Positions 5,780 to 40,684 of a stretch of DNA of 64,000 nucleotides are shown one piece after another. The position numbers were made by a program, and so were the translations under genes. The stretch is from Streptomyces sp. NBC_01244 (GTDB lineage: Bacteria; Actinomycetota; Actinomycetes; Streptomycetales; Streptomycetaceae). The DNA lies in NCBI RefSeq assembly GCF_035987325.1, contig NZ_CP108488.1, positions 8,556,001 to 8,620,000 on the forward strand. Direction: 5' to 3'. Within the stretch, counting starts at the first letter, position 1, and the number at the start of each line of letters is the position of its first letter. The notes below the pieces were generated by a model. The model did not search any database and was not told where the DNA came from. It saw only the letters and a list, made by a program, of their open reading frames with translations.

Positions 5780-7393
5780 TCAGCCCTGGCAGACGCCGCG
5801 GGTGTAGTCGTGCGTCGCGGTGGCCTGGGAGTAGCGCCACTGGGGGTCCAGCAGGTCGCTCTTCAGCTGTCCGGCGGCGGCCGGGCTCTCGACGATGTAC
5901 CCGAAGTCCTGCAGCCAGGACGGATACAGGTTCTTCGAGCCGATGTAGAAGGCCGATCCGTCGACCGACACCAGTTTGTGGTGCTGGGCATACGGCTTGC
6001 CGTCCGCCCAGGTCGGCTGGTCCGAGGCGCGGAACGTGGCCAGCTGGAGGTTCTCGCACAGAGCCGTCCGGGCTCGGGCGCCGTCGCCGGTCAGGGCCGT
6101 CACCCGGCCGCGCAGGGCGTCGCTCACCTCGGAGAGCGACTTGATCTGCGAGTAGCCGCCGCTGCCGATCGTGCCGCGGTTCGCCGGGTCGCTCACGACG
6201 ATGCGAACCTTCACGCCGGAGGCGAGCTTCGCGGCGAGGGCGTCGTAGAGGCGCACGTCGTAGCGGGGCAGCGGCGGGCAGGTGGCGTGCACGTCCTGCT
6301 GGGAGATCTCGATGTGAGAGGTCGCGCTGGAGATCAGGGCGCGCAGCGCGCTCTCCTCCGGGTTGACGGTGTCGTAGTCCCGATCGGCGTTCGTCCTGTC
6401 GTGCACCCCGATCCCGCACTTGGTGTCGCCGGCCGTGGGCAGGACCGGGCGGAAGACGGAGGCGGGGTCGTTCTGGCGGATGCCCACGCCGAGCCCGCCG
6501 ACGGCCAGTGCGGGCACGTTCCCCTCGCCCTGCGGGGAGGCGGGCCGGGGCAGGGCGGGCATGCAGTCCGCGCCGGGCGAGGCGGCGAACCAGACCGCAC
6601 TCCAGTTGTTCTTGTTGCGACAGGTCCAGTCCCACAGGGAGTCCAGGTAGCGGCCCGCGGAACCGGCCGCCGGTCCGGACAGGGCGAGGTCGACGTCGCT
6701 CACCGGGTGGGAGGTCTCGAGATAGTCGTCCTTCCAGCTGTTGATGCCACCGGTGATCACCGAACTGCCGTCCACCACGACCAGCTTGGAGTGATTCCAG
6801 GAGAAGGCGGTCTTCGAGGTGGTCATCGAGGCCACGTTCAAGGTGATGTTGCCCGCGGCGGCCGGGCCGAGCTTCGTGAGCAGCTCGTCCCGGTAGGACG
6901 ACGGGATCACCGTGGAGTGGTAGAGGGGCGCGGCGCCGACCATGACGCGCACCTTCAGCCGGTTGCCCTTCTGTACGGATTCCCGAAGGCCCGCGACGAT
7001 CGCCTCCTGGAAACCGCCGTTGGGGAAGGGCGCCAGGGTTGATATGTCGACCGTCTGCCGGGCGTCGGCGATGTCGCGCCGCATCTTGTCCAGGAGGCGG
7101 CGCGATCCGGGCCGGTCGGCGCACACGGCGTCGCCCCAGCATCCGGGAGTCTGGAGCAGCCAGTCGGCGCCCCCGGGCTCGGACGAGCCGAGCCGGTTGC
7201 CGGAGGTGCGCTCCCAGATCGAGCCCTCCAGGCCCGGCGAGACCTGACGCAGGGTCTGCTCGACCGCGTCCAGGTGCGGGGTGGGTGCCGGCGCCTCCGA
7301 GGCGGAGGCGGGGGTGATGGCGCCGAGGAGGGAGAAGCCGAGTGCGAGCGCCGCTGTGGAGACGAGTGCGGCCGTACGGACGGTGCGTGCCAA
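5780..7393 (-). CDS. Secreted phospholipase D
   Basis: 537-aa precursor of a Streptomyces-type phospholipase D that hydrolyses phosphatidylcholine or transphosphatidylates it outside the cell. Two HKD motifs are visible: HSKLVVVDG starting at His201 and HHKLVSVDG at His471. A signal peptide ([19 protein letters not shown], ending ...PASASEA) leads the protein. The TTG start at 7393 is chosen because AAGGAACC lies ~6 nt upstream; reading further 5' only gives antisense of the P450 gene. Length fits the family (~540-560 aa precursor). Confidence 0.93.
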
Positions 7394-10374: not shown

Positions 10375-11175
10375 CTACGGGCGCGCCACGAAGCGGATGG
10401 GGGCCTGGAAGCGGGCCTTGCGGGCGGCGCGGCGGAAGACCGTGAGGACGGCCGGGCCGGCGAGGCAGACGCAGACGAAGTTGGTGACGGCGCGGCCGGT
10501 GTCCCAGCCGAGGGAAGTGGCGAGGTCGAAGGCGAGGTAGCGGTGGAACTGCTCGGTGAAGGGGAGGCCGGGGAGGTAGGCGATGGAGCTGTTGGGGTCG
10601 AGGGAGAAGGGCCAGAAGGAGAGGTTGAGGAGGAAGCCGAAGAGGTAGCCGGAGACCGAACCGTAGACCGCGAGCATCGCGATTTCCCGGCGGCCGGTGG
10701 CCTTGGGGAGGAAGCCGGCGAGCATGCCGACGAAGGCGCAGCCGAACATCTGGTACGGCATCCAGGGCCCGACGCCGCCGGTGATGAGGGCGGAGGCGAA
10801 GAGGGACGTGCAGCCCAGGGTGAAGCCGAAGCCGGGGCCGTAGACGCGTCCGGCCAGGACGAGGATGAAGAAGACCGTTTCGATGCCGGCGGTACCCGCG
10901 CCGAGCGGGCGGATGGCGGCGTTGACGGCCGACAGGACGCCCAGCATGGCCAGGGCCTTGGAGTTGATGCCGCCCTCCGCGATCTCGGAGATCACGACGG
11001 AGAGGACGATGACCAGCAGAACGCCGAAGATCAGGGGTGGGGCGTAGTGGGAGCCGAACGTGCCGGGAACGACGAGGAAGGGCCAGAAGAACGCGACGAG
11101 CCCGAGGAAGGCCGCCATGGTGATGACGATTCCGGCCCGGGGGCGGATGCGGATGGCCGCGGTGTACGTGTTCAC
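10375..11175 (-). CDS. ECF transporter substrate-binding (S) component, CbrT-like
   Basis: 266-aa membrane protein with about six transmembrane segments, the substrate-specific part of an energy-coupling-factor importer. The conserved LGVLSAVNAAIRPLGAGTAG and GPWMPYQMFGCAFVGMLAGF resemble S components annotated as CbrT-like (cobalamin). It is the last gene of a five-gene operon; its GTG start overlaps the ATPase stop (GTGA). The far upstream cobalamin riboswitch supports a corrinoid substrate; the sequence alone does not prove it. Confidence 0.8.
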   Translation of the reverse strand: MNTYTAAIRIRPRAGIVITMAAFLGLVAFFWPFLVVPGTFGSHYAPPLIFGVLLVIVLSVVISEIAEGGINSKALAMLGVLSAVNAAIRPLGAGTAGIETVFFILVLAGRVYGPGFGFTLGCTSLFASALITGGVGPWMPYQMFGCAFVGMLAGFLPKATGRREIAMLAVYGSVSGYLFGFLLNLSFWPFSLDPNSSIAYLPGLPFTEQFHRYLAFDLATSLGWDTGRAVTNFVCVCLAGPAVLTVFRRAARKARFQAPIRFVARP

Positions 11176-12833
11176 GCGTGCGGGTCCGTTCCGTCGGCGG
11201 CGGTGAGTACGGCGGCCAGTTGGTCGACGGTGAGGAAGGGCAGCGGGGCCAGGATCTTCGCGGTCTGAGGTGCGAAGACGGGGGAGGCGACGATGACCTC
11301 GGTGGTGGGGCCGTCGGCGACGATGTCGCCTTCGGCCATCACCACGACGCGGTCGGCGGCCCGTGCGACGAACTCGACGTCATGGGTGGAGATCACGACG
11401 GCCCGGCCCTCCGCGGCCAGGTCGTCGACGATGCGGACGAGTTCGTTCTTGGCGCGGTAGTCGAGGCCGCGGGTCGGCTCGTCCAGCAAGAGGACGCGGG
11501 GGGCGGCGGTCAGCTGGATCGCGAGGACGAGGGCGAGTTTCTGGCCCTCGGAGAGGTCGCGGGGGTGGGTGGTGTCGGGGATGCCGGGTGCGAGCCGGTC
11601 CAGGATGGCGCGGGCCCGGATCCCGTGCGCGGCGACTGCGGACTCGGTGTCGGCCTGGTCGAGTTCCTGCCGGACCGATTCGAGGTAGAGGAGGTCGGTC
11701 GGGGTTTGGGGGACGAGACCGACGAGTTGCCGGGCCTGCGCGGCGGACAGCTTCCGCGGGTCCTGAGGCTTCGTGCCGGCCTCGGCTGCGCTTACGGCCA
11801 CGGTGCCGGCCTTGCGGGGGCCGGAACCCTGGAGCGCCCAGAGGAGCGAGGACTTGCCGGAGCCGTTGCGGCCCATGAGCGCGGTGACCTCACCGCCGTG
11901 GAGGCAGAGGTCGACCTCCCGTACGGCCGGGACGCCGTGGTAGGTCACGGTGACGCCGCGCGCGGTGAGGAGTTCCGGGTGGGTGGCCGTCGGGGTGGGG
12001 CGTACCGGTGGGGGAGTGCGGTCGGCCAGCCGGCTCCGCAAAGGAGCGGCTGCACGTCGGGCGTCACGGATGGAGAGCGGCAGCGGGGTCCAGCCGGCCG
12101 CGCGGCCGAGCTCCACGATGGGTGGTGCGATGGACGACGTACGGAAGATCTCGGCGGGTGTGCCCGACACGACGAGGCCGTCGCCGGGGAGGTGGATGAC
12201 ACGGTCGGCGTACTGGACCACGCGCTCAAGGCGGTGTTCGGCGAGCAGCACGGTGACGCCGAGGTCGTGGACGAGGCGGGTGACGGCGGCGAGGACCTCC
12301 TCGGCGGCCGTCGGGTCCAGCGCGGAGGTGGGCTCGTCGAGGACGAGGACCCGGGGGTGGGCGGTCAGGACGGAGCCGATCGCGACGCGCTGCTGTTGGC
12401 CGCCGGACAGCTCGTGCAGGGCGCGGTGGCGCAGGTCGGCGAGGCCGAGGAGATCGAGGGTTTCCTCGACGCGCTTGCGCATGGTGGCCGGTGGTACAGC
12501 CAACTGCTCCATCGCGTAGGCGAGTTCCTCCTCGACCGTGTCGGTGACGAAACCGTCCAGCGGGTCCTGCCCCACCACCCCGACCACGTCGGCGAGTTCG
12601 CGTGGGGGGTGCGCCGCGGTGTCCCGTCCGTCGACCACGACGCGGCCGAAGAGGGTGCCGCCGGTGAAGTGGGGAACGAGGCCGTTGACGGCGCCGAGGA
12701 GGGTGGACTTGCCGACGCCCGTGTGGCCGACGACCAGGCAGAGTTCGCCCTCCTCCACGGTGAGGTTCACGTCGCGCAGCACCGGTTCCTCCGCGTCGTC
12801 GTACTGGACGGTGACCTCGTCGAAGGTGATCAC
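11172..12833 (-). CDS. ECF transporter double ATPase (fused A-A')
   Basis: 553-aa protein with two ABC ATPase domains in one chain that power the ECF importer from the cytoplasm. Domain 1 has Walker A GHTGVGKST at residues 36-44, signature LSGGQQQR and Walker B VLVLDEPTSALDP. Domain 2 has Walker A GRNGSGKSS, signature LSEGQ and VLLLDEPTRGLD. A ~50-residue linker with basic and Pro-rich stretches joins them. It starts at GTG 12833, overlapping the T-component stop, and overlaps the S gene at its end. Confidence 0.9.
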   Translation of the reverse strand: MITFDEVTVQYDDAEEPVLRDVNLTVEEGELCLVVGHTGVGKSTLLGAVNGLVPHFTGGTLFGRVVVDGRDTAAHPPRELADVVGVVGQDPLDGFVTDTVEEELAYAMEQLAVPPATMRKRVEETLDLLGLADLRHRALHELSGGQQQRVAIGSVLTAHPRVLVLDEPTSALDPTAAEEVLAAVTRLVHDLGVTVLLAEHRLERVVQYADRVIHLPGDGLVVSGTPAEIFRTSSIAPPIVELGRAAGWTPLPLSIRDARRAAAPLRSRLADRTPPPVRPTPTATHPELLTARGVTVTYHGVPAVREVDLCLHGGEVTALMGRNGSGKSSLLWALQGSGPRKAGTVAVSAAEAGTKPQDPRKLSAAQARQLVGLVPQTPTDLLYLESVRQELDQADTESAVAAHGIRARAILDRLAPGIPDTTHPRDLSEGQKLALVLAIQLTAAPRVLLLDEPTRGLDYRAKNELVRIVDDLAAEGRAVVISTHDVEFVARAADRVVVMAEGDIVADGPTTEVIVASPVFAPQTAKILAPLPFLTVDQLAAVLTAADGTDPHA

Positions 12834-14023
12834 TTGGGTTCCTCGGTGCGCTGTGCGGGGACGACCACGCGGGCGGGCGGGGCCGGGGGCGGGGCCAGGA
12901 AGCCGGCGGTACCCGCGAGGAGGATCGCGGCGGCGGGTACGAGCGGCAGGGTGGGCCAACTGAGCGGATAGATCGAAGGGTTGAGTTCGGCGGCGTTGAA
13001 GCCGACGTTCGCGAAGAGGAGGACCGCGGAGAGGACCCCGCAGCCGGCGACGGACCACTCGGCTGCGCGCCAGGGGTCGGGCCGATAGGTGGTCCGGGTG
13101 ATGCGGCGGCCGCCCAGGCGCAGTCCCGCGAAACACAGCAGGGCACCGGCGCCCATGGAAGGCAGGCCCAGCAGTGTCGGAGCGGTGGCGTCGAGCAGTC
13201 CGTACGCCCCGGCACACAGGCCGCACATGCCGAGCAGCATGAGGGCGCCGGTCAGCCGGCGGGAGCGGCGGGTGGCGGTGCCCGCGCGGCCGTAGCCGCG
13301 GGAGTCCATGGCGGCGGCGAGACGAAGGGACCGCTCCAGAGCGTCTTCGAGGACCGGTACGACGATGCCCCGCAGGGCGCGCAGTCCCTTGGACCGGCCG
13401 GCCCGCAGCCGCTTGGCCCGGTGCACCCGCTGCACGCTCTGGACGAGTTGGGGCGCGACACTGATGGACACGGTGACGGCGACGCCCAGTTCGTACAGGG
13501 CGCCGGGCAGGACGCGCAGGGCGCGCTTCGGGTTGGCCAGGGTGTTGGCGGCGCCGATGCAGCACAGCATGCAGGCGAGCCGCAGTCCGTCGGTGGCGGC
13601 GGACAGCAGGGCCTCCAGCGAGACGGGGCCACCGAGCTGGATCCCCGCGTACCAGTCGGGTGTGGGGATGTGCGGCAGGGAGAAGAGGAAGTGGTCGCGG
13701 GGGGTGATGCCGGTGGCGAAGACGGCGCGGAAGAGCACCCGGATCGCGACCACGGTGAGGGCCAGGTACAGGTAGTACTTGAACCCGCGCGCCCAGGGGG
13801 CCTCGGTGCGCCGCACGGTGATGACGTAGCCGAGGACGGCGAGGACCAGGAACAGCAGCAGCGGGTTGTTGGTGCGGCTGACGGCGGTGGCCAGGGCCAG
13901 TGCCCAGATCCACCAGGCGACCGGATGCAGGGTGCGGGGCAGCCGGCGACCGCCCGCGTCCGACGTGATGCCGGACGCGGGCGTCTTGGCCGCGGCCACG
14001 GTGGTGGTGGTGGTGCGGGACAC
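12830..14023 (-). CDS. ECF transporter transmembrane (T) component
   Basis: 397-aa membrane coupling protein of the ECF importer. It has several hydrophobic segments (e.g. WWIWALALATAV, LLLFLVLAVLGYVI) and the coupling-helix signature AAAMDSRGYGR, used to contact the ATPases. An extra hydrophobic region of ~120 residues follows the core. Start GTG at 14023, 4 nt after the upstream stop and preceded by CGGAG; the longer reading from 14077 runs into the upstream gene. Ends in a 4-nt overlap with the ATPase gene. Confidence 0.87.
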   Translation of the reverse strand: MSRTTTTTVAAAKTPASGITSDAGGRRLPRTLHPVAWWIWALALATAVSRTNNPLLLFLVLAVLGYVITVRRTEAPWARGFKYYLYLALTVVAIRVLFRAVFATGITPRDHFLFSLPHIPTPDWYAGIQLGGPVSLEALLSAATDGLRLACMLCCIGAANTLANPKRALRVLPGALYELGVAVTVSISVAPQLVQSVQRVHRAKRLRAGRSKGLRALRGIVVPVLEDALERSLRLAAAMDSRGYGRAGTATRRSRRLTGALMLLGMCGLCAGAYGLLDATAPTLLGLPSMGAGALLCFAGLRLGGRRITRTTYRPDPWRAAEWSVAGCGVLSAVLLFANVGFNAAELNPSIYPLSWPTLPLVPAAAILLAGTAGFLAPPPAPPARVVVPAQRTEEPK

Positions 14024-14027
14024 GCGG

Positions 14028-14957
14028 CTACTCCGTACTACGACGGCGGCGCCTGGCCGCGTACACGGCGGCGCCACCGATCAGGAGCACCAGGGCTCCG
14101 GTGGCGACGGCGGGCAGGTACGAGCCCACGTCATGGGTGGCGTCGGCGGCGGGGGCCGCTTCGACGACCTGGGGGCCCGGGGCGGGCGCGGCTGCCGCCG
14201 GCGCGCTGGACGACGCCGAAGCGGAGGGCGTAGGGGAGACGCTCCCGGAGGGGCTCGGCGAAGCCGACGGGCTCGGCGAAGCAGGGGGGCTGGACGGCGG
14301 CGTCGGGTCGGGCGCGGTCGGGTTCTCCGGCGTGGGGCCCGTGTCGACGCTCGGCGGCGGAAGCGCCGCGGTGCGGGTGTCCTTGGGTGCGGGGCCGCCC
14401 GTCGGCGCGGTGTTCTTGGCACGAAGCTGGTCGGGGGTGACGGTGGGCTTGCCCTCGGTGCCCTCGATGTTGGTGCCGCCGAAGATCCACAGGTCTACGC
14501 TGCCCGGCTTGGGCTTGTACAGCATGGCGCCGAGCTGGCTGTACTCCCAGGCGTTCTGGCCGGGGTTGGCGTGCCAGTACGACCAATAGGCGGAGGCGGG
14601 GGGCGTGAGCACGCAGTCGTCCTGCTGCGGCGTGGGGAACTGCCTGCCGCCCTGGAAGCCGCTGTAGCCGATGCGGCAGATGAAGGCGGGACCGTCGTGG
14701 CCGGTGCCGGTGGTGGCCCAGCCGCCCTGGTTGAGGAGCTCGTAGCCGGTGGTGGGCGTGCTGCCGCAGGACCGGTACACCGGGCCGCCCCAGCGGCTGA
14801 AGTCCACGGCGAGGACGGCCCCGGAGGAGGTCGTGCACTGTCCCATGGGGAGCGGGGCGGCCCCGGCCGGGGCCGCGGTGGCGGCGAGGGCCGCCACCGT
14901 CAGGCCCAGCGCGGCGGCGGTACGGGCCAGGATCCGCAGTGCGCGGCTGCGGATCAC
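14028..14957 (-). CDS. Secreted membrane-tethered transcobalamin beta-domain-like protein
   Basis: 309-aa exported protein: signal peptide (residues ~1-33, ...APAGAAP), a ~115-residue domain with paired cysteines and AYWSYWHANPGQNAWEYSQ, a Pro/Ser/Thr-rich wall-spanning linker (~175-270), one transmembrane helix and an RRRRR tail. The folded domain is clearly paralogous to the N-terminal domain of the upstream 935-aa protein (TTPTTGYELL, CVLTP, YWSYW shared) and I read it as DUF4430-like. SYLPAVATG before the helix is not a canonical sortase motif. GTGA overlap with the upstream gene. Inferred role: surface corrinoid binding for the ECF importer. Confidence 0.7.
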   Translation of the reverse strand: MIRSRALRILARTAAALGLTVAALAATAAPAGAAPLPMGQCTTSSGAVLAVDFSRWGGPVYRSCGSTPTTGYELLNQGGWATTGTGHDGPAFICRIGYSGFQGGRQFPTPQQDDCVLTPPASAYWSYWHANPGQNAWEYSQLGAMLYKPKPGSVDLWIFGGTNIEGTEGKPTVTPDQLRAKNTAPTGGPAPKDTRTAALPPPSVDTGPTPENPTAPDPTPPSSPPASPSPSASPSPSGSVSPTPSASASSSAPAAAAPAPGPQVVEAAPAADATHDVGSYLPAVATGALVLLIGGAAVYAARRRRRSTE

Positions 14958-17761
14958 GCCCCGCCCCCGGTGGTTTCGCGGCGGCGCTTGGCGGCGCGGG
15001 TGAGGCCCCAGCCGCCGAGGGTCAGGAGCAGGGCCGCTGCGGCGAGCCCCCCGACCTGGGCACCGGTGGCGGCGAGGCCGCCACCACCCCCGCCGGAGCC
15101 CGAGCCGCCCCCGCTTTCACCCGGGGTCACGATGACGGGCGAGGAGGGGGAGGGGGAGGGGGAGCCGGACGGCCGGACCGAGGTGCTGGGGACGGGCTGG
15201 GGGGTGGTGCCGCTCAGGTCGCGGGTCAGCAGGCCGAAGGAGATGCCGGTGGCGCCGCCTACGGCCTGCGCGGAGGCGCGGACGTCGGAACCGGGCTGGC
15301 CGCCCTTGGCGATGGTGAAGCCGCCGTCGCCGTTCTGCTGCGAGACGAGGAACCTGCGGGCCTTGGCGATGCGGTCCGCGTACCTCGTGGCGTCCAGGGA
15401 CATGCCCTGTACGGCGAGAGCCGCGGAGTTGACGGAATTGCCGGATGCGCCAGGGAAGCCGCCGTCGTCCTTCTGCTGGGTGGCCAGCCAGGCGACGGCC
15501 TTGTCGACGGCCGCCTGCGATGCGGCGTCGGGGAGCAGGTCGAGTGCCATGGCGGCCATCGCCGTGGAGTCCACTTCGGCCTGGCTGGCCTCGCCGATCA
15601 GGCTGGGCCAGGCGCCCGAGGGGTCCTGGAGGCTCTTGAGGTAGGCGATCGGTTCGGCCGCGGCAGCCGTCTCGCCGGCCCGGACCTGGGCGATGACGCC
15701 GAGGGACTGGGAAAAGACGGAGGTGGCGAAGACGTAGTTGCCCTTCGCCGCGCACTGCTTGGGGGTGTCGTTCTTCGCGGTGCAGATGCCCTGGGCGAGC
15801 GCGGCGATGAGGTCCTGGCCGCCGAAGTCGCGGGGGTCGCGGCCCACGGTCTCGGCGAGGAGGGCCGCCTTGCCGAGGGAGCCGCCGCCGGCGTACTTGG
15901 TGCCGATCAGGGTCCAGTCGTTGATGGTGCGGCCCTTGCCGTCCTTGCCACCCTTGTCGAGGAAGTCGACGATGCCCCGCAGCGTGGTGTTGTCCTGTCC
16001 GGTGGCGGCGAGTGCGTAGGCACCGTCGATGGTCAGGCCGTAGTCGGCGAAGCCGGTGCCCGCGCCGCTCTCGTAGTAGCGGCCCTGGATCAGACGGCTG
16101 TGGTCGGCGAGGTAGGCCGAGCCCTTCTTCAGGTCCGGCCCGTCACCGGCCGGAGGGGTGACCGGGGGAGTAACGGGTGGGGTCACCGGGGGAGTGACCG
16201 GCGGGGTGGTCGGTGGGTCGGTCTTCTTCGTGGTCAGCGCGACCAGGTCGCTCTTGGCGCCCGCGATGGCGGCCGGGGTGGTCGCGAACAGTCGCGATTC
16301 GGTGTCGTCCTCCTCGAAGCCGAAACCGGCCCCCGGGAACTGGTGCCGGGAGAGCCAGGAGACCCCCGCGTCCGCGAAGGCCTCGTCGCCGAGTGCGCGC
16401 AGGGCCTGGGCGGCCCAGGCGGTCGAGGCCGGGCTGCCGGTCGTCATGTACGAGGCGGAGGGCCAAGCGCCGGTCGCCAGCTGGGACTTCTTGAGGTGGT
16501 CGCGGGCCTTCTGCACGGCGGCGTCGTGGCCGCCGGCCCGCTTGAGGGCCAGCGTGATGAGCCCGGTGGCGTTCGCGTCGCTGTCGCACCATTCGCCGGA
16601 GCGGATGAGGATGCCGGTGAAGCCGCCGTCCTCGCACTGGAGGCCGGTCAGCCGGTTCACGGCGTCGGCCGGGGGCGTCACGCCGCCGTTGAGCAGGGCG
16701 ATGACGGCCATGGCCTGAGCGTCGGACTGGCCGGTGGTGCGGAAGTCGCCCTTGGTCAGGCAGCCTTCGATGTTCTCGCCGTCACCGATGTCGCGCGGGC
16801 AGACGTACTTCAGGAGGTCGCCGAGCAGGTCGTGACCGCCGAAGGCTCGGGGGTCCTTGCCGGTGGCCTCGGCGACGAGCGCGAGACGGGCGGCGGCGGT
16901 GGCGTCGGGGATCTTGTCCTTGCCGGCCGGGTAGGCGTACGCGTCGGTCTGCGCGGGCGTGGCGAGGAAGTCGGCGACCTTCTTGGCTGCCGGGCCCTTC
17001 GGGTCGGCGGCCGCCAGGGCGTAAGCGACCTCGGTGGTGAGGAAATGGTTCGGGGTGGTGGAGCCCTCGTCGACGACGCGCTCCCCGTCCGTCAGCCTCC
17101 CGGTGATCCAGCGGGTGGCCGCGGGGACGTCGACCGACCCCGCGGGCACGGTGGGCGGGGCCGTCGGGACGGTCGGATCGGGGGTGGAACCGCCCCCGGC
17201 GCGTACGTCGTCGGGTGAGAAGCCGGGCTTGCCCGAGGTGCCGCCGATGTCGGTGCCTCCGTAGACCCAGGCGTCCACGTCGCCGGCCTGCGGGGTGCGG
17301 GACATGGCGCCGAGCGAGCTGTAGGTCCAGTTCTTCTGACCGGGGGAGGCGGTCCAGTACGACCAGTACGCGGTGGCCTGCGGGGTGAGGACGCAGTCCT
17401 CCTTGTCCGGAGTGGGGTACTCCGTACCGGTGTTGAAGGAGCCTTTGCCTATCCGGCAGATGAACCCGTCACCGTCGTGGACGGTGCCCTCGGTGGTGAA
17501 GCCACCGGTGTGCAGCAGCTCGTAGCCGGTGGTGGGGGTCGTGTCGCAGCCGCGCTCGACCTTGCCGCCGAAGGGGCCGAAGTCCACGGCGACGATGGCG
17601 CCGGTGGTGGCCGTGCACTGGTCGATCGGGTCGGCGTTCGCGGAGGTGGGCACCGTGAGGAAGGCCACTCCCGCGCCGAGCGTCAGGAAGGACGCGGTCA
17701 CGAGGGAGAAGAACCGCCGTCTCGTCCCCGAATGCCGTTTCGCCTGCTGGTCGGTCCCCAC
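14954..17761 (-). CDS. Sortase-anchored surface protein with beta-domain and two alpha-toroid domains (transcobalamin-like)
   Basis: 935-aa exported protein. Order: basic n-region and signal peptide (ends TSANA, ~43), a DUF4430-like domain (~45-160), a first prenyltransferase/squalene-cyclase-type helical toroid (~185-500), a PPVT-repeat linker, a second toroid (~545-830; QQKDDGGFPGASG, QQNGDGGFTIAKG), a Pro/Ser linker and a class-E sortase signal LAATG at residue 896 with helix and RRR tail. Animal transcobalamin combines the same two folds. Start GTG 17761 has GAGGG 5 nt upstream; GTG 17848 and ATG 17821 are alternatives. First gene of the ECF operon, behind a cobalamin riboswitch. Confidence 0.8.
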   Translation of the reverse strand: MGTDQQAKRHSGTRRRFFSLVTASFLTLGAGVAFLTVPTSANADPIDQCTATTGAIVAVDFGPFGGKVERGCDTTPTTGYELLHTGGFTTEGTVHDGDGFICRIGKGSFNTGTEYPTPDKEDCVLTPQATAYWSYWTASPGQKNWTYSSLGAMSRTPQAGDVDAWVYGGTDIGGTSGKPGFSPDDVRAGGGSTPDPTVPTAPPTVPAGSVDVPAATRWITGRLTDGERVVDEGSTTPNHFLTTEVAYALAAADPKGPAAKKVADFLATPAQTDAYAYPAGKDKIPDATAAARLALVAEATGKDPRAFGGHDLLGDLLKYVCPRDIGDGENIEGCLTKGDFRTTGQSDAQAMAVIALLNGGVTPPADAVNRLTGLQCEDGGFTGILIRSGEWCDSDANATGLITLALKRAGGHDAAVQKARDHLKKSQLATGAWPSASYMTTGSPASTAWAAQALRALGDEAFADAGVSWLSRHQFPGAGFGFEEDDTESRLFATTPAAIAGAKSDLVALTTKKTDPPTTPPVTPPVTPPVTPPVTPPAGDGPDLKKGSAYLADHSRLIQGRYYESGAGTGFADYGLTIDGAYALAATGQDNTTLRGIVDFLDKGGKDGKGRTINDWTLIGTKYAGGGSLGKAALLAETVGRDPRDFGGQDLIAALAQGICTAKNDTPKQCAAKGNYVFATSVFSQSLGVIAQVRAGETAAAAEPIAYLKSLQDPSGAWPSLIGEASQAEVDSTAMAAMALDLLPDAASQAAVDKAVAWLATQQKDDGGFPGASGNSVNSAALAVQGMSLDATRYADRIAKARRFLVSQQNGDGGFTIAKGGQPGSDVRASAQAVGGATGISFGLLTRDLSGTTPQPVPSTSVRPSGSPSPSPSSPVIVTPGESGGGSGSGGGGGGLAATGAQVGGLAAAALLLTLGGWGLTRAAKRRRETTGGGA
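16155..16215 (-). repeat. PPVT-coding tandem repeat
   Basis: Four to five ~12-bp units encode repeated PPVT between the two toroid domains of the surface protein. Pro/Thr repeats of this kind act as stiff spacers in cell-wall proteins. Confidence 0.7.
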
Positions 17762-17884
17762 CGCGGCCCTCGTCTCTGCCGGGCGGCTGCGTACGTGGCG
17801 ATGCGCCCCCGCACGGCTCATGCGCCATGGGGAGGCTGCGACGACCACACCGCAGTCCGCGACGGCGTTCTTCGTACTGTGACC

Positions 17885-18000
17885 CAGCCCCAGGCATTCC
17901 GGCTCACCCGGGACGCCCCGGGTCTACGGTTGCGGGTCAGCGCCGGAATTCGACCGGCTTCCCCTGGTACTGAGCAGTTATCAGCCGGAGTGCAACACGG
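17885..18000 (-). promoter_or_regulatory. Cobalamin riboswitch controlling the surface-protein/ECF operon
   Basis: On the minus strand the core reads GGGGAAGCCGGTCGAATTCC then GGCGCTGACCCGCAACCGTA, matching the conserved cobalamin-aptamer junction. A GC hairpin (GACCCGGGGCGTCCCGGGT) and a B12-box-like GAGCCGGAATGCC follow. It lies in the leader of the 935-aa surface protein. Cobalamin riboswitches normally shut genes off when B12 is plentiful. Confidence 0.85.
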
Positions 18001-18084
18001 ATGTCGCTGACGCGTCAAGGTGGCTTGAGTCTCACCGGACGGCCCCGGTGGCAGCGGCTTCGGCCCGGCACGTGCACGCCGTCC

Positions 18085-18240
18085 GGGTGGCTGGCGGACC
18101 CTTGATCACTCCGGTAGCGTCCTGGGCTGCCACGTGGGGGAATCCGGTGAGAAGCCGGAGCTGACGCGCAGCGGTGTGGGACGGCGGGGGCCGTTCCGAG
18201 CCCGAATGCCCAAGCGGCGATGCAGTACAGGAAGCCGTAC
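18085..18240 (+). promoter_or_regulatory. Cobalamin riboswitch controlling the secreted toroid-DUF4430 protein
   Basis: The core GGGGGAATCCGGTGAGAAGC then CGGAGCTGACGCGCAGCGGT is very close to the E. coli btuB element, followed by a B12-box-like GAGCCCGAATGCC. It is divergent from the riboswitch at 17885-18000, so both promoters must lie in about 18000-18085. It ends ~110 bp before the gene's ATG. Confidence 0.88.
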
Positions 18241-18350
18241 CACGCGTTCCGGACGGCGGCCCTCCGACCATGCCCCGGCCGCGCTCGTGTGCGGTGACCT
18301 GCGGGCGTGCGCGGGCAGCGGCCGGCGTTCGCCGATTCCAGGAGCAGGCC

Positions 18351-19763
18351 ATGTCCCGTCCCCGTACCTCCCGCCGCCTCGCACTCGCGGTTCCCGCCGC
18401 GCTCGGCGCCTTCGCCCTCACCGCGCTGCCCGCCTTCGCGACCTCCAGCCCGGCGCAGATGGCCACGTCCAAGACGAACGGCGTCGCCTATCTCAAGTCA
18501 CTCCAGGCTGCGGACGGTTCGTACGCCGGGTCCGGGCTGTCCAACGAATGGGCGTTCAGCACCTTCGCCGCCGCCGGTACGGCCGTCGTCGATGTCGCCC
18601 CAGGCGGCGACACCACGAAGAACGCCCGCACGGTCTACCGCAACCTGCTCTCCACGGCGGGCTGGCCGCAGGCTTCCCCCGTGGTCACCGACTACGAGCG
18701 CGGCACCCTGAACGCGTACGCCGCGGGCATCGACCCGGCGCGCGTCTCCGCCTCGCGCAACCTCGTCGCGAACATCTACTCCTACTGGCAGACGGCCGAG
18801 GCGGGCTACTTCGGCCCGTCCGGGAACTTCAACGGCACCGTCTTCGCGGCCCTTTCGCTGCGCGGGGCCAAGACCCAGGGCGGCGCGCACCGCATCCCGC
18901 AGGCGCTCACCGACTCGATGGTCACCCGCATCCGCGCCAACCAGCACGTGGACGGCGGCTGGACCTTTAACAAGGCCGAGGGCAACCCCACCGTCCTCAA
19001 CTCCGCGAGCGACGTCGACATGACCGGCGCCGCGATGGCCGCCCTCTGCGTCTCCGGCGTGCCCGGCACCGACGCGGACGTCGTGCAGGCCAAGAACTTC
19101 CTCAAGGGCAAGCTGGTCGCGACCACCGGCGCCTTCAACTCCATGTACGGCGTCAACACCAGCTCCAACGGCTGGGGCGTGGCGGGCCTGAACGCCTGTG
19201 GCATCAACACGCAGACCGGTGACTTCCTCACCGCCAACGGCAAGACCCCGATCGACTTCCTGATCGCCAACCAGTACAACCCGGCGGGCGGCTTCAAGTA
19301 CAAGCCCGCCGACACCTCGCCCTCCGCCTACGCCACCATCGACGCGCTGCGCGCCGTCGTCGGCGGCGGCTTCACCACCGCCCCGCCGGTCCCCGTCACC
19401 CCGGGTGCTCCGCAGTGGGTCGCCCAGTCGACCTTCACCGCAGGCACCGCCACCAAGCTGGCCCTGACCGTCGACGACGGCGCCGGCAACCTCAAGGTCT
19501 GCTCGGTGGCCTTCACGCCGACCGGTACGACCACGACCCTCGGCGGCGTCCTGAACGCCGCGACCACCGGCGCCACCCCGTCGGGCTGCGTCACGAGCGT
19601 CACCCCGTCCTCCGGCACCGGCACGATCACCGCCGTCAACGGCAAGGCCAACAGCGGCTCCAACACCTGGAAGGTCAGCGTCGACGGCTCGGCCTTCGCC
19701 GGCGCCGCCCGCAACAAGGCGATCAATGTGGGAGACACGATCGCCCTGCGCTGGGGCGCCTGA
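18351..19763 (+). CDS. Secreted alpha-toroid + DUF4430 protein (transcobalamin/intrinsic-factor architecture)
   Basis: 470-aa exported protein without a wall anchor. Signal peptide ~1-30 (ALGAFALTALPAFA); a helical toroid of prenyltransferase/squalene-oxidase-like repeats ~35-340 (YLKSLQAADGSYAGSG, NQHVDGGWTFNKAEG); then a C-terminal DUF4430 domain ~360-470 ending VGDTIALRWGA. Toroid followed by this beta-domain is the order found in animal transcobalamin and intrinsic factor, which grip B12 between the two domains. ATG 18351 has AGGAG 7 nt upstream. Expression is under a cobalamin riboswitch. Inferred role: secreted corrinoid scavenger feeding the neighbouring ECF importer. Confidence 0.82.
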   Translation: MSRPRTSRRLALAVPAALGAFALTALPAFATSSPAQMATSKTNGVAYLKSLQAADGSYAGSGLSNEWAFSTFAAAGTAVVDVAPGGDTTKNARTVYRNLLSTAGWPQASPVVTDYERGTLNAYAAGIDPARVSASRNLVANIYSYWQTAEAGYFGPSGNFNGTVFAALSLRGAKTQGGAHRIPQALTDSMVTRIRANQHVDGGWTFNKAEGNPTVLNSASDVDMTGAAMAALCVSGVPGTDADVVQAKNFLKGKLVATTGAFNSMYGVNTSSNGWGVAGLNACGINTQTGDFLTANGKTPIDFLIANQYNPAGGFKYKPADTSPSAYATIDALRAVVGGGFTTAPPVPVTPGAPQWVAQSTFTAGTATKLALTVDDGAGNLKVCSVAFTPTGTTTTLGGVLNAATTGATPSGCVTSVTPSSGTGTITAVNGKANSGSNTWKVSVDGSAFAGAARNKAINVGDTIALRWGA

Positions 19764-19824: not shown

Positions 19825-20610
19825 TCAACCGTGGGTGAAGTGCGGCGGCCGTTTGTCCACGAAGGCGGACATGCCCTCCTTCTGGTCGGCCGTGGCGAAC
19901 ACCGCGTGGAACAGGCGGCGTTCGAACCGGACGCCCTCGGTGAGGGTGGTCTCGAAGGAGCGGTTCACGGCCTCCTTGGCCATCATCGCGACCGGCTTCG
20001 ACATCCCGGCGACGGTTTCCGCCACGGAGAGGGCCTCGGCGAGCAGCTCGTCCGCCGGGACGATCCGTGAGACGAGCCCCGCGCGCTCGGCCTCCTCGGC
20101 GCCCATGGTGCGGCCCGTCAGGCAGAGTTCCATCGCCTTGGCCTTGCCGACGGCGCGGGTGAGCCGTTGGGATCCGCCGATCCCGGGGATGACGCCGAGT
20201 TTGATCTCGGGCTGTCCGAACTTCGCGGTGTCGGCGGCGAGGAGGATGTCGCAGAGCATCGCCAACTCGCAGCCACCGCCCAGCGCGTAGCCGGAGACCG
20301 CGGCGATGGTGGGCGTACGGACCTGGCCGAGCCGGTCCCAGGCACCGAACCAGTCGGAGAGGTACATGTCCATGTAGCTCCGCGGGCGCATCTCTTTGAT
20401 GTCGGCGCCGGCGGCGAAGGCCTTCGCGGAGCCGGTGAGGACGATGCAGCCGACTTCGGCATCCCGGTCCAAGGCCTCGGCGGCGGCCACGACCTCGTTC
20501 ATGACCTGGAGGTTGAGGGCATTGAGGGCCTGCGGCCGGTTGAGGGTGAGGACGGCCACCCGTCCCTTGCGTTCCAGCAGGATGGTCTCGTACGTGGTGC
20601 CGTCGCTCAT
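19825..20610 (-). CDS. Enoyl-CoA hydratase (probable methacrylyl-CoA hydratase)
   Basis: 261-aa crotonase-fold enzyme, last gene of the valine operon. Oxyanion-hole blocks [11 protein letters not shown] and [16 protein letters not shown] are present, as are the two catalytic-acid positions in [13 protein letters not shown], making it a bona fide hydratase. In context it should hydrate methacrylyl-CoA to 3-hydroxyisobutyryl-CoA, though a general short-chain role is equally compatible. The ATG overlaps the stop of mmsB (ATGA). Confidence 0.9.
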
Positions 20611-21509
20611 GGGGTGGCTCCGTTCTGGGGTCGCAGGGTGCGGACGATCGCCGAGAAGTCCAGGCCGGCGCCCTCGCCCTCCGCGAACGCGGCGTACAGT
20701 TCGGCGGCCTTGAGGCCCAGTGGCGCGTCCACACCGCCGGCCCGCAGGGCGTTGGCGGCCAGGCCGAGGTCCTTGGCCATGAGCGGCGCGGCGAAGCCGG
20801 GCCGGTAGTCGCGGTTGGCGGGACTCGTCGGAACCGGCCCGGGGACGGGGCAGTTGACGGTGAGCGCCCAGCACTGGCCGGAAGCGGTGGAGGCGACGTC
20901 GTAGAGGGCCTGGTGGTCCAGGCCGAGGCTCTCGGCGAGGACGAAAGCCTCGCTGACGCCGATCATCGAGACGGCGAGGATCATGTTGTTGCAGATCTTC
21001 GCAGCCTGCCCCGCCCCCGCGGACCCGCAGTGGACGGCCTTCTTCCCCATGGCGTCCAGGAGCGGCTGCGCCGCGGCGAATTCCGCGGCGCCCCCGCCCG
21101 CCATGAAGGTGAGCGTGCCGGCCTCGGCGCCCACCACACCGCCGGACACCGGGGCATCGAGCGCCCGGTGACCGGCCGCTACGACGGCCTCGTGCGCGGC
21201 GCGGGCGTCGGCGACGTCGATGGTGGAGCAGTCGACGAAGAGGGTGCCGGGCCGGGCGGCGGCGAGCAGTCCCCCTTCCCGGTACAGGGCGAGGACGTGG
21301 CGGCCGGCCGGCAGCATGGTGATGACCACGTCGGCGCGAGTGGCGGCGTCGGCAGCCGATGCCGCGGGTTCGACACCGGCGGCGGCAGCCGCCGCCAGCT
21401 GGTCCGGTACGAGGTCGAAGCCGAGGACGCGGTGCCCGGCCTTGACCAGGTTGCCGGCCATCGGGCCGCCCATGTGGCCGAGTCCGATGAATGCGACGGT
21501 GCTGGTCAC
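20607..21509 (-). CDS. mmsB: 3-hydroxyisobutyrate dehydrogenase
   Basis: 300-aa NAD-dependent beta-hydroxyacid dehydrogenase that oxidises 3-hydroxyisobutyrate to methylmalonate semialdehyde. The Rossmann start [20 protein letters not shown], substrate motif [16 protein letters not shown] and catalytic Lys in GQAAKICNN are visible. Starts at ATG 21509, overlapping the upstream hydrolase, and overlaps the hydratase downstream. Confidence 0.93.
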
Positions 21510-22591
21510 CAGGCGACCTCCTGTGACGACGGGGACGGGGCGAGGCGGAGTTCGCGGTCGCCGAGCGGGGCGAAGAACCGTTCGACCTCCGCCGGGCCGA
21601 CGGCTTGGAGGGTGGCGGGGGACCAGCGCGGGTCACGGTCCTTGTCGATGACCTGGGCGCGGATGCCTTCGACGAGGTCGGGCGAGGACAGGGCGGCGAC
21701 GGAGACGCGGTACTCCTGTTCCAGGACCCGTTCCAGGGGGCCGAGCCGGCGGGCTCGGCGGAGCGCGGCCAGGGTGACTTTGACCGCGGTGGGGGACTTC
21801 GCCGGCAGCGTGTCCGCCGAGGCCTTCGCGGCCGGGAGGTCCGCGGCGAGCAGCCGCGCGAGGATCTCCTCGGCGGTGTCCGCGGCATAGCAGTGGTCGA
21901 TCCACTCCCGGTGGCCGTGGAGCACGCCGACGGGTACGGGCTCCACGAACCGCTCCAGCACCTCGTGTACGGAGCCGTGCGCGAGGTCCGAGGCCAGCGC
22001 CGGCAGCCGGTCGGCGGGTACGAAGTGGTCGGCGAGGCCGCACAGCAGGGCGTCCGCCGCGCCGACCGGCGTCCCCGTCAGGGCCAAGTGGGTGCCCAGC
22101 TCGCCGGGGGCCAGAGCGAGCAGGTACGTTCCGCCGACGTCGGGAACGAAGCCGATGCCGGTCTCGGGCATGGCGATGCGGGAGCGTTCGGTGACGATGC
22201 GGACGGTGCCGTGCGCGGAGATCCCGACGCCGCCGCCCATGACGATGCCGTCCATCAGGGCCACGTACGGCTTGGGGTAGCGGGCGATGCGGGCGTTGAG
22301 GCGGTACTCGTCGCGCCAGAAGTCCGCCGAGGCCGTGCCGCCGCTGCGGGCGTCCTCGTAGATCGCGCGGATGTCGCCACCCGCGCACAGGCCGCGTTCG
22401 CCGGCGCCCTCGATGACCACCGTCTCGACGGCCGGGTCGTGCTCCCAGACGGTGAGGGCCTGGTCGATGCGCAGGGCCATGGGATGCGTGAGGGCGTTGA
22501 GGGCCTTGGGACGGTTGAGCGTGATGTAGGCGGCGTGGCCCTCGGTGCGCAGGAGGACGTGGTCGGGTTCTTCGGGGGATGTGTGGTTCAT
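21506..22591 (-). CDS. 3-hydroxyisobutyryl-CoA hydrolase
   Basis: 361-aa member of the crotonase superfamily with the extended C terminus of HIBYL-CoA hydrolases. [16 protein letters not shown] and [15 protein letters not shown] form the oxyanion hole, and [17 protein letters not shown] carries the catalytic residues. It releases free 3-hydroxyisobutyrate, which MmsB then oxidises. The ATG at 22591 overlaps the acyl-CoA dehydrogenase stop (ATGA); continuing the frame upstream only gives antisense-like shadow sequence. Confidence 0.92.
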
Positions 22592-23739
22592 CGCAGGGTC
22601 TCCGTCAGTCCGCGCGCGACGATGACGCGCATGACCTCGTTGGTGCCTTCCAGGATCTGGTGGACGCGCAGGTCGCGGACGATCTTCTCGATGCCGTATT
22701 CGCTGAGGTAGCCGTATCCGCCGTGGAGTTGGAGGGCGCGGTCGGCGACCGCGTAGCCGGTGTCGGTGGCGAACCGCTTGGCCATCGCGCACAGTCGCGG
22801 GGCCAGCGGATCGCCCGCGTCGAGGGCCTCCGCGGCCTGCCGGAGCAGGGCGCGGGCGGCGGCGAGTTCCGTGGCCATGTCGGCCAGCCGGAACTGGAGC
22901 GCCTGCGCGTCCAGGAGCCGGCCGCCGAAGGCCTCGCGGTCCGCGAGGTAGGACAGGCTGCGGTCCAGGGCGCTCTGCGCGCCGCCCAGCGAGCAGGCGG
23001 CGATGCCGAGGCGCCCGCCGTTGAGGCCGTTCATGGCGATGCGGAAGCCGTCCCCCTCGACGCCGAGGCGGCGATCGTCGGGGACCCGGACGGCGTCGAG
23101 GATGACCTGGCGGGTGGGCTGCGCGTTCCAGCCCATCTTGGCCTCGTTGGGGCCGAACGAGACTCCGGGGTCTTCGCGTTCGACGACGAAGGCCGAGATG
23201 CCGCCCGGGCCGGCCTCGCCCGTCCGCGCCATGACCACGTAGACGCCCGAGGCTCCGGCGCCGGAGACGAACTGCTTGACGCCCGTCAGGACGTAGTGGT
23301 CGCCCTCCCGCTCGGCGCGGGTGCGCAGGGCGGCGGCGTCGGAGCCGGCGCCCGGCTCGGTCAGGCAGTAGCTGCCCAGGGTGTCCGCCGAGCAGAGGCC
23401 GGGAAGCCAGCGCTCTCGCTGGCCCCGGTTCCCGTAGCGGTCGATCATCCAGGCGACCATGTTGTGGATGGACAGGTACCCGGCGATGGACGGGCAGCCG
23501 GTGGCGAGGGTCTCGAAGACGAGGACCCCGTCGCTCCGGCTGAGACCCGAACCGCCGTGCTCCTCGCGGACGTAGACCCCGCCGAGGCCCAGACCGGCGG
23601 CCCGGCGCAGGACCTCCACGGGGAAGTGCTTGGTCCGGTCCCACAGGACGGCGTGGGGAGCGAGATGCTCCTGGGCGAAGTCGAGGGTGACCTCGGCGAG
23701 GGCGAGCTGGTCCTCGGTCAGGGTGGCCACCGGGCTCAT
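22588..23739 (-). CDS. Acyl-CoA dehydrogenase (probable isobutyryl-CoA dehydrogenase)
   Basis: 383-aa FAD enzyme. LTEPGAGSDAAALRTRA is the FAD/substrate signature, and the C-terminal ILEGTNEVMRVIVARGL keeps the catalytic Glu. Position between mmsA and the HIBYL-CoA hydrolase fits the ACAD8-type step isobutyryl-CoA to methacrylyl-CoA. ATG 23739 overlaps the mmsA stop, and its own stop overlaps the hydrolase start, so translation is coupled along the operon. Confidence 0.92.
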   Translation of the reverse strand: MSPVATLTEDQLALAEVTLDFAQEHLAPHAVLWDRTKHFPVEVLRRAAGLGLGGVYVREEHGGSGLSRSDGVLVFETLATGCPSIAGYLSIHNMVAWMIDRYGNRGQRERWLPGLCSADTLGSYCLTEPGAGSDAAALRTRAEREGDHYVLTGVKQFVSGAGASGVYVVMARTGEAGPGGISAFVVEREDPGVSFGPNEAKMGWNAQPTRQVILDAVRVPDDRRLGVEGDGFRIAMNGLNGGRLGIAACSLGGAQSALDRSLSYLADREAFGGRLLDAQALQFRLADMATELAAARALLRQAAEALDAGDPLAPRLCAMAKRFATDTGYAVADRALQLHGGYGYLSEYGIEKIVRDLRVHQILEGTNEVMRVIVARGLTETLR

Positions 23740-25233
23740 CCCGTCGTCGGAATGCTGAAGTTCGCGCCTTCCTTGGCCCCGGAGGGCCAGCGCGAGGTCA
23801 CGGTCTTCGTGCGCGTGTAGAAGCGGATGGAGTCGGGACCGTGCTGGTTCAGGTCGCCGAAGCCGGACCGCTTCCAGCCGCCGAAGGTGTGGTAGGCGAC
23901 GGGGATGGGGACGGCACGTTGACGCCGACCATGCCGGCGCCCACCCGGCGGGTGAAGTCGCGGGCGGTGTCCCCGTCCCGGGTGAAGATCGCGACGCCGT
24001 TGCCGTACGGGTGTTCCGTGGGCAGGCGCAGCGCCTCCTCGTAGTCGGCGGCCCGTACGACGCTCAAGACCGGGCCGAAGATCTCCTCGCGGTAGATCCG
24101 CATCCCCGGGGTGACGCGGTCGAAGAGGCTGGGCCCGGTGAAGTAGCCGTTCTCGTGCCCGGGCACGGTGAACCCGCGTCCATCGACGAGGAGTTCGGCC
24201 CCTCGGTTGCTCCGATGCCGACGTAGCGGTCCACCCGGTCCAGTGCGTCGCGGCTGACCAGGGGCCCGAAGTCGGCCTCGGGGTCGTCGGAGCGGCCGAC
24301 GCGCAGCGTGGCCAGGCGCTCCTTCAACTTCGCGACCAGGGCATCCGCGGTCTCCTCGCCGACGGGCACGACGACGGAGACGGCCATGCAGCGTTCCCCG
24401 GCAGAGCCGTATCCGGCGCCGATCAGCGCGTCGACGGCCTGGTCCAGGTCGGCGTCGGGCATCACGACCATGTGGTTCTTGGCCCCGCCGAAGCACTGGG
24501 CGCGCTTGCCGTGCGCGGCGGCGGTGGCGTAGACGTACGCGGCGATCGGGGTCGATCCGACGAAGCCGAGGGCCTGGACGCGGGGGTCTTCGAGGAGGGT
24601 GTCGACGGCTTCCTTGCCGCCGTTGACGACATTGAGCACGCCGGCCGGCAGGCCTGCCTCCAGGAAGAGTTCGGCCAGCCGCAGCGGTACGGACGGGTCT
24701 CGTTCGGAGGGCTTCAGGACGAAGGAGTTTCCACAGGCCAGGGCGGGGGCGGCCTGCCAGAGGGGGATCATGGCGGGGAAGTTGAAGGGGGTGATCCCGG
24801 CGACGACGCCGAGCGGCGAGCGCAAGGAGTGCACGTCGATGCCCGTGCTCGCGTTGTCGGTGAATTCTCCCTTGAGCAGGTGCGGGATCCCGGCGGCGAA
24901 CTCGACCACCTCCAGGCCGCGTTGCAGGTCACCGTGGGCGTCGGCGACGGTCTTGCCGTGCTCGGCGGACAGCAGCCGGGCGAGCGAGTCCCGTTCCCCT
25001 TCGATCAGTTGGAGGAAGCGCAGCAGGACGCGTGAGCGGCGCTGCGGGTTCCACCGGGCCCAGTCGGCCTGAGCCTCTTCGGCGTTGGCGATGGCGGCCT
25101 CGGTGTCGGCGCGCCCGGCCAGGGGGACCCGGGCCTGGACCGTCCCGGTGTTGGGGTCGTACACGTCGGCGAAGAGGCCGGAGGTTCCGACCGTGTGCTT
25201 GCCGCCGATGAAATGGGTGAGCTCGCGGACCAT
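23736..25233 (-). pseudogene. mmsA: Methylmalonate-semialdehyde dehydrogenase with two 1-nt frameshifts
   Basis: First gene of the valine operon. The N-terminal ~340 residues are intact ([32 protein letters not shown] holds the catalytic Cys). Near 24200 the frame breaks: the + strand has a run of four C where five would keep [14 protein letters not shown]. It breaks again near 23912, where one G is missing before [12 protein letters not shown]. Restoring both bases gives 1500 nt, i.e. 499 aa, the normal MmsA length, ending in the ATGA overlap with the next gene. Both losses are in short G/C runs, so sequencing error is as likely as true inactivation. Confidence 0.85.
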
Positions 25234-25360: not shown

Positions 25361-25435
25361 CGCCGGATCACCAGGGTCGTGGGTACAAACCGGTGCCATG
25401 CGTGTCTGCTCCATCCTCGTGGACAACACGGAACA

Positions 25436-25581
25436 TCCGCGGCCGGTATCCTGACTCCCGGATCCCCGCGTGCCGCCCGCCTTCCCGACAGACCTCGTCA
25501 GTGGCGTGTGGATGGCAGCACACTCCCCGGTCACAGTGGCGGGACCGTGCCGGTTTTTCACCGGCTTCCCTGCACCGCGGA
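25436..25581 (-). promoter_or_regulatory. Cobalamin riboswitch upstream of the valine operon
   Basis: On the minus strand: GCAGGGAAGCCGGTGAAAAA then CCGGCACGGTCCCGCCACTG, and at the 3' side the B12 box GAGTCAGGATACC. The outer stem TCCGCGG/CCGCGGA closes the element. This is a textbook aptamer. The next same-strand gene is mmsA, ~200 nt downstream. The leader between them has a short open frame (GAGGATGGAG then ATG) that resembles no family I know. Confidence 0.9.
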
Positions 25582-40658: not shown

Positions 40659-40684
40659 CCGATTGCGATGAAGATCGCGTAGGC

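Follow-up and report, generated by a model that had tools for sequence, protein, structure and literature searches.

Surface proteins that join a toroid to a beta-grasp domain, and whose genes lie with CbiO and CbiQ genes, have been predicted to scavenge vitamin B12 (cobalamin) in Gram-positive bacteria, and animals have been proposed to have acquired such proteins from bacteria (Burroughs et al. 2007, PMC1796856). The idea of a bacterial B12 scavenger built from a toroid and a beta domain was thus already in print in 2007. Here we describe a six-gene locus of Streptomyces sp. NBC_01244, at positions 10375–19763 of a stretch of 64,000 nucleotides (hereafter the window; G000:C1:8556001–8620000 of a 10.0-Mb genome in three contigs), which encodes toroid and beta-domain surface proteins next to an energy-coupling factor (ECF) importer and is probably a system for capturing and importing a corrinoid (vitamin B12 or cobinamide). 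The system shares with the transcobalamin-like SLBB (beta-grasp) clade of the 2007 work secreted or anchored proteins with toroid and beta domain in either order, several paralogues per operon, fusions to beta-propellers, and CbiO/CbiQ genes alongside (PMC1796856). Hosts of that clade usually lack B12 synthesis, whereas the window host has CobN and CobI/CbiL; furthermore, section 7 of that paper does not speak of toroids fused to transporter subunits, such as the S–toroid fusions described below. The strings "riboswitch", "S component", "permut" and "Streptomyces" do not occur in its main text.

The importer compares with ECF-CbrT of Lactobacillus delbrueckii (6FNP), which takes up cobalamin and cobinamide (PMC5997447) and whose S component is of the same sequence family, as described below. 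In L. delbrueckii, cbrS lies beside cbrT and eight predicted S components share one ECF module (PMC5997447), whereas the window has a T component and a double ATPase in the operon of the S component itself, and adds two to four toroid or beta-domain surface proteins. A Lacticaseibacillus proteome table prints the label "Additional lipoprotein component of putative cobalamin ECF transporter" for a single, small protein, for which the pertinent part of that paper mentions neither toroids nor a wall anchor, unlike the window set (PMC9963975). The animal carriers transcobalamin, intrinsic factor and haptocorrin share with the secreted protein of the window the order of toroid, then beta domain, but they have no sequence-level match to the window toroid, and the window also distributes toroids and beta domains among several proteins. 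Within Streptomyces, the SCO2321 and SCO2322 family proteins (NCBIfam) are the toroid and beta proteins of a genus-wide sister operon; that set has one toroid, separate proteins and an apparently permuted beta domain, unlike the window set.

No paper on the Streptomyces operons was found in the open-access literature, in agreement with a sequence-only reading of the window that knew of no experimental description in this genus. The pertinent passages of two open-access papers on DUF4430 contain no test of its bacterial function, and neither an S–toroid fusion nor a permuted beta domain was met in print, no search having been aimed at either by name. As far as literature searches show, the passage of corrinoids across the thick Gram-positive wall to an ECF importer has been little studied.

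Two riboswitch-led transcription units

The minus-strand unit (17848–10375) comprises five genes, neighbours of which overlap by 4 bases or lie 4 bases apart. Specifically, it encodes a wall-anchored protein made of a beta domain, two toroids, a linker and a terminal LAATG signal (14954–17848 (−), 964 aa), a membrane-tethered beta-domain protein (14028–14957 (−), 309 aa), an ECF T component (12830–14023 (−), 397 aa), an ECF double ATPase with two ABC_tran stretches (AA; 11172–12833 (−), 553 aa) and an ECF S component (10375–11175 (−), 266 aa). The sixth gene, divergent from this operon, encodes a secreted protein of 470 aa with a toroid followed by DUF4430 (18351–19763 (+)). All six are open reading frames with Streptomyces-like codon use and, together with the profile matches given below, they bear out the positions and content assigned by the sequence-only reading. 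For the anchored protein, a codon model favours an alternative start at 17701 (915 aa) over the 964-aa form.

Both units stand behind cobalamin riboswitches, as had been proposed. Rfam model RF00174 (cut-off 31.5 bits) matches 17900–18009 (−) at 34.6 bits and 18137–18211 (+) at 35.3 bits, with whole-window E-values of 4e-5 and 3e-5, respectively. The gap to the gene start is 51 or 198 bases for the two starts of the anchored protein and 139 bases for the secreted protein. A candidate further member, overlooked in the sequence-only reading, is a lone secreted DUF4430 protein of 162 aa (32354–32842 (−)) with its own riboswitch at 32984–33100 (−) (37.2 bits). RF00174 has 12 matches in the whole genome, 11 of them above the cut-off, and four of the 12 lie on systems of the toroid/DUF4430 type: the two operon leaders, the lone DUF4430 gene, and a sister operon at C1:3.12–3.13 Mb, where the match (30.5 bits) is slightly below the cut-off.

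An ECF module with a CbrT-type S component

The T component and the two ATPase domains of a CbrT-type transporter are both present in the operon. The T protein matches PF02361 CbiQ at 45 bits (cut-off 25), and the AA protein matches ECF_ATPase_1 at 296 bits against a cut-off of 315 and cbiO above that model's own cut-off. The S protein reaches 30.6 bits against PF12822 ECF_trnsprt (cut-off 30.7; E 4e-7). A broad profile, A6, made from 16 S proteins of Actinomycetota and Firmicutes with the window S included, has 6fnp_A as its best PDB chain (3.2e-26, 95.6 bits), the next chain standing at 0.31 and 13.8 bits; PDB searches with the single S and with a narrow profile, A3, gave nothing useful, and only A6 reached CbrT. 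Conversely, the window S scores 81 bits against the CbrT-family profile built without its two Streptomyces rows, a profile that matches none of the remaining proteins among the 52 called in the window. The similarity supports placing the window S component in the CbrT (vitamin B12) family, and because it is of this family, the concern raised with the sequence-only reading, that the S component might belong to a non-corrinoid family, falls away.

Cobalamin riboswitches also govern cobalt uptake, and modules of the CbiQ/CbiO type often serve metals. An importer of cobalt (or nickel) would agree with a T component in the CbiQ Pfam family and with an AA protein that matches cbiO above the cut-off. 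However, the S component is CbrT-like, no CbiM family appears among the S matches, and big toroid and beta-domain proteins are ill-suited to a metal ion, so that we regard a metal importer as highly improbable.

Fusion of the S component to a toroid

In relatives of the system the S component and the toroid can be one protein. The products of L153:5919–7871 (650 aa) and L146:6417–8453 (678 aa) consist of S, then a toroid, then a C-terminal hydrophobic segment. Among 119 genomes of the Solirubrobacterales-type class, 63 match an S–toroid query. S and toroid are fused in 14 of the 119 genomes (12 without a stop, 2 with one stop inside), and in 16 more the toroid lies downstream of S on the same strand, at −6 to 537 bases. 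S and toroid are apart in 7 of the remaining matched genomes, while 14 have S only and 9 the toroid only; these figures sort 60 of the 63 matched genomes, the other 3 being found only in nine low-scoring rows (query beyond residue 412) that were left out.

The best 80 of 581 loci, picked by the S–toroid query, were fetched, and 22 of them hold a fused open frame, with an S stretch of ~200 and a toroid stretch of about 260–310 residues. The fused loci include those of the isolates Conexibacter arvalis DSM 23288 and Conexibacter sp. CPCC 205762 (Thermoleophilia, Solirubrobacterales). DUF4430 is found in 64 of the 80 loci; because the loci were picked by the S–toroid query, this is the only independent share among them. 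Records L162 and L188 are those of G222 and G244 and already fall inside the 198-genome count given below. As judged by hydropathy, what was once the toroid protein's signal peptide seems to have turned into the membrane segment between S and toroid (L153 residues 205–229), and the toroid of the fusion would lie outside the cell.

S is also found joined to the ATPase. In Paenibacillus sp. CF384 (L224 5120–7606), S (residues 604–826) is fused to a double ECF ATPase in one 828-aa frame, and in G053 (L048 4034–6727) one 897-aa frame matches both ATPase and S.

Linkage of DUF4430, toroid and S across the phylum

A comparison of gene neighbourhoods, suggested with the sequence-only reading, links toroid, DUF4430 and ECF/CbrT genes phylum-wide. 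In a survey of 198 evenly drawn genomes, DUF4430 occurs in 35, the S family in 70 and both in 30 (Fisher p 1.6e-11, with no correction for kinship; the exclusion of three weak second S rows, G125:C30 and G090:C134 twice, leaves the genome counts unchanged), so that 30 of the 35 DUF4430 genomes have S and 5 do not. In 23 of the 30 genomes DUF4430 and S lie 2.7–4.1 kb apart; in the other seven they are on the same contig in G000 and G164, 22 and 203 kb apart, and on separate contigs in five.

Outside Streptomyces, five loci (L142, L143, L144, L150 and L151) have the order riboswitch, large secreted protein, DUF4430 protein, T, double ATPase, S, C-terminally anchored toroid, with T unrecognised in L151 and the S position in L144 and L151 taken from the phylum S search. 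The S-adjacent toroid of L142 is 30.8% identical to a window toroid (E 2e-18, in a small database). Of 12 loci from outside Streptomyces, 8 have a cobalamin-type riboswitch on the operon strand at the Rfam cut-off, the exceptions being L140, L141, L145 and L152; so do 6 of 9 further loci, one of which, L162, repeats the record of L153. In the same scan, three Streptomyces stretches gave one riboswitch in L147, on the strand opposite to the operon, and none in L148 and L149.

The large secreted protein consists of a beta-propeller and DUF5719 in the two loci tested against Pfam (L142 5259–7862 and L150 5448–7994). As the first gene product of several riboswitch-led operons it is a further candidate corrinoid binder, and it recalls the BtuG propeller of Bacteroides. 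Giant proteins of 1537–1846 aa occur in S–DUF4430 clusters (L139 4336–8949, L140 1134–6674, L141 10907–16411); the one tested, that of L139, combines two DUF4430 stretches with a beta-propeller match and, at the C-terminus, a hydrophobic segment.

Toroids, beta domains and anchoring of the surface proteins

The anchored and the secreted protein of the window each combine alpha/alpha toroid and beta domain. The anchored protein matches three toroid Pfam families above their cut-offs, and its model shows two toroids, at residues about 187–490 and 520–836. Its C-terminus carries a sorting signal of LAxTG, hydrophobic stretch and basic tail, and all 35 aligned rows keep the L, A, T and G unchanged; the NCBIfam LAXTG model gives 17 bits of 65. 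In G005, outside that alignment, an LASTG tail lies in a different frame from the called protein. The tail and the two modelled toroids agree with the proposal of a sortase-anchored protein with a beta domain and two toroids, which we take to be a class E sortase substrate. The tethered protein has a signal peptide, a beta domain, a Pro/Ser linker and a C-terminal transmembrane segment, without LAxTG; it has no Pfam match at E 0.1 and a partial match to NCBIfam SCO2322_fam at 24.5 bits against a cut-off of 85. The beta domains of the tethered and anchored proteins are 53–62% identical in relatives.

DUF4430 (PF14478, cut-off 23.8 bits) is presumably the beta-grasp domain of Burroughs et al., and the Lacticaseibacillus label quoted above is, we assume, the SEED label for DUF4430 lipoproteins. 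The lone protein at 32354–32842 matches DUF4430 above the cut-off, at 26.7 bits, and the 470-aa protein below it, at 17.6 bits, while the tethered and anchored beta proteins have no DUF4430 match in the Pfam scan. Scoring of 7994 candidates gave 799 homologues of the 470-aa protein. The sequence-only reading likened this protein to transcobalamin; the domain order, toroid and then DUF4430, bears the comparison, but family membership does not, as PF01122, which we take to be the animal transcobalamin-family toroid, is not among the window-protein matches at E up to 0.1 or in a second scan at 0.01, and no transcobalamin is among the PDB matches listed. When the PDB was searched by sequence with the 470-aa protein, with its profile A1 and with the lone DUF4430 protein, there was either no match or a weak one, chance-like or to terpene cyclases. 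A fold search with the low-confidence model of the 470-aa protein has transcobalamin, intrinsic factor and haptocorrin within its first 14 rows, which we treat as a lead. With the 915-aa model, the rows are taken up by the toroid (model residues 184–498), and the absence of transcobalamin from the 50 rows listed in either of the two fold searches with this model excludes nothing.

An apparently permuted beta domain in the sister operon

On visual comparison, the sister operon's SCO2322-type domain looks like a circular permutant of the window beta domain, and profile alignment (11 versus 25 sequences) supports this relation at the sequence level. In the single-copy alignment, the best match covers 52 columns with a score of 62.6, and a second one takes up the remaining half with the order swapped (score 26.2, probability 17%). 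When the profile is doubled, one run of 126 columns is obtained, with a score of 78.9 and a probability of 97%. None of 150 controls with the C-terminal half shuffled reaches 78.9 (mean 57.3, maximum 64.4; the split column, 55 of 158, was placed by hand). DUF4430, in a profile from which two of 30 segments (L086 and L101) were dropped, aligns colinearly with the window beta domain over 66 of 69 columns, with a score of 16.5 against a shuffle maximum of 15.8 (150 of 150 beaten).

Two operon types within Streptomyces

A same-genus survey covered 61 genomes, 37 of them of the same genus, the window's own counted, and found an S homologue in 35 of the 37. The common form is the sister operon, which encodes a SCO2321-like toroid and a SCO2322-like beta protein followed by T, AA and S. 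All 26 fetched sister loci, a subset of those found, have toroid, T and S in order, and the beta gene was called in 25. The ATPase, which was outside the query, is visible in the five loci read; in two of these the gene caller split or fused it. A riboswitch at the Rfam cut-off lies 84–276 bases upstream of the toroid gene in 11 of the 26.

The five genomes with a window-type operon are exactly those that have the secreted toroid and DUF4430 protein. In G015, the operon goes on past S with a lone DUF4430 gene, a LAATG-ended toroid protein and a small beta protein; the homologue of the window's lone DUF4430 protein (L040:3526–4017, 75% identical) comes immediately after S. The locus of G012 is divided inside the beta proteins into halves that are 2.6 Mb apart: L072 10825–13480 holds the N-terminal beta domain and the secreted protein, and L041 11022–14863 the end of the tethered beta protein with T, AA and S. 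Beyond the genus, a beta gene accompanies T, AA and S in G037 (L045), where no toroid was recognised.

Probable capture and import of a corrinoid, and the alternatives

The gene content and order, the riboswitches, the family of the S component, the co-conservation of S, toroid and DUF4430, and the S–toroid fusion in relatives are all observed; the system is real and well conserved, and very probably corrinoid-related. Binding, the ligand beyond the family level, and the direction and order of handover are what we infer in the following scheme. The interpretation given in the sequence-only reading is supported in part, the order of its proposed relay being among the inferred points. Low cellular cobalamin would let both transcription units be expressed through their riboswitches, in line with what is generally known of these elements. 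The secreted protein of toroid and beta domain and the lone DUF4430 protein would collect corrinoid outside, and the wall-anchored beta–toroid–toroid protein and the membrane-tethered beta protein would keep it near the membrane. The corrinoid would sit between toroid and beta domain, as in transcobalamin, and would be handed to the CbrT-type S component, with the T component and the double ATPase powering import.

A number of results weigh against this scheme. The window-type operon (S at least 88% identical) is present in just 5 of the 37 same-genus genomes. Among the three intact window-type relatives, both units have a riboswitch at the cut-off only in G015; in G019 and G005 the secreted-protein unit alone has one, as does the secreted-protein unit of G012, and in a set of seven relatives a riboswitch lies near the cluster only in G052. 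In 15 of the 26 sister operons no riboswitch match reaches the Rfam cut-off. Nine of these 15 carry at least one of two short aptamer strings within 500 bases upstream and 6 carry neither; for want of a chance control, the strings are left uncounted. The hhalign probability for DUF4430 against the window beta domain is 1.6%, and the DUF4430-protein profile has no PDB relative. The structure model of the 470-aa protein is poor (pLDDT 40.8), probably because the input alignment, at 79–91% identity to the query, is too uniform. Finally, a PDB search with the toroid profile finds squalene-hopene cyclases (7.5e-42) and prenyltransferases, and transcobalamin, intrinsic factor and haptocorrin are not among the 60 of 64 matches listed.

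The last result raises the question whether the toroid proteins are enzymes, or polysaccharide binders, for a surface substrate unrelated to corrinoids and merely co-regulated by B12. Their sequence and fold matches, to squalene-hopene cyclases, drimenyl diphosphate synthase and cellobiose epimerases, point that way. However, the proteins are secreted or at the surface, the toroid can be fused to a CbrT-type S component, and the genes are linked with DUF4430, described as a domain at the C-terminus of transcobalamins (PMC4350170), which together make an unrelated substrate very unlikely.

The host itself weighs against the scheme as well. CobN, CobI/CbiL and MetH are found above their profile cut-offs, one riboswitch lies ~190 bases upstream of the CobN match, and a further one leads the genes of an ABC importer (periplasmic-binding-protein domain, FecCD permease, ATPase). 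Because the host has both B12 synthesis genes and this FecCD-type importer, its need for corrinoid import is not obvious. As judged from its genes the host probably makes and uses B12, and the system would therefore be a scavenger in a producer. The proteins might instead serve to hoard B12 on the wall or to recatch the host's own leaked corrinoids, a purpose with which CobN, CobI/CbiL and a freely secreted carrier agree; but a complete importer within the operon and the S–toroid fusions indicate import, and we consider this other purpose unlikely.

Capture coupled to import is the reading we prefer, and it can tentatively be carried further, to a proposal that we put forward with some doubt: transcobalamin may be dismantled in bacteria, with toroid and beta domain separate, variously ordered or permuted, and clamping the corrinoid only on meeting at the membrane. 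The S-fused toroid would then be a transporter lid with direct handover, and the Streptomyces sets, with secreted, wall-anchored and membrane forms, an elaborate case in probable B12 makers.

The new points of greatest interest, in our view, are that S can be fused to a toroid, that the domains occur split and permuted, and that the equipment of a probable B12 producer is redundant. The S–toroid fusions and the compact Streptomyces operons make the scavenger prediction of 2007 directly testable on single proteins and gene sets. If true, the scheme has implications for the bacterial origin of animal B12 carriers, as proposed in PMC1796856, for B12 competition among soil organisms, and for the way a membrane-toppling S component works with an outer domain of ~300 residues attached.

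Other features of the window

At 25424–25594 (−) lies the genome's strongest cobalamin riboswitch (99 bits), which has an unusual target. Downstream of it lies an apparent valine-degradation operon (19825–25233 (−)), with an MMSDH-like gene, an acyl-CoA dehydrogenase, an open reading frame at 21506–22591, a 3-hydroxyisobutyrate dehydrogenase-like gene and an enoyl-CoA hydratase. The pairing of riboswitch and MMSDH-like gene is repeated in G015 (L074 4777–4956 and 5187–6686). The MMSDH-like gene of the window (24064–25233 (−)) encodes 389 aa versus 499 aa in G015, with 88% identity over residues 1–359 and divergence thereafter, and reads as a broken gene or a sequence error.

Amid the B12-controlled genes lie those for isocitrate lyase, malate synthase and 3-hydroxybutyryl-CoA dehydrogenase (28364–32206 (+)) and for a RamB-like regulator (26586–28001); this group may provide a route that is independent of B12, alongside B12-dependent acetate or propionate metabolism. 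Near the import system, at 5780–7393 (−), is a gene for a phospholipase-D-like protein with two PLD-like stretches and an apparent signal peptide, with no evident link to that system. The region ~35000–46000 has a lower G+C content (63–69%) and weaker codon bias, and its open reading frame at 39301–39909 starts, by eye, like a serine recombinase, so that this region is a possible inserted element.

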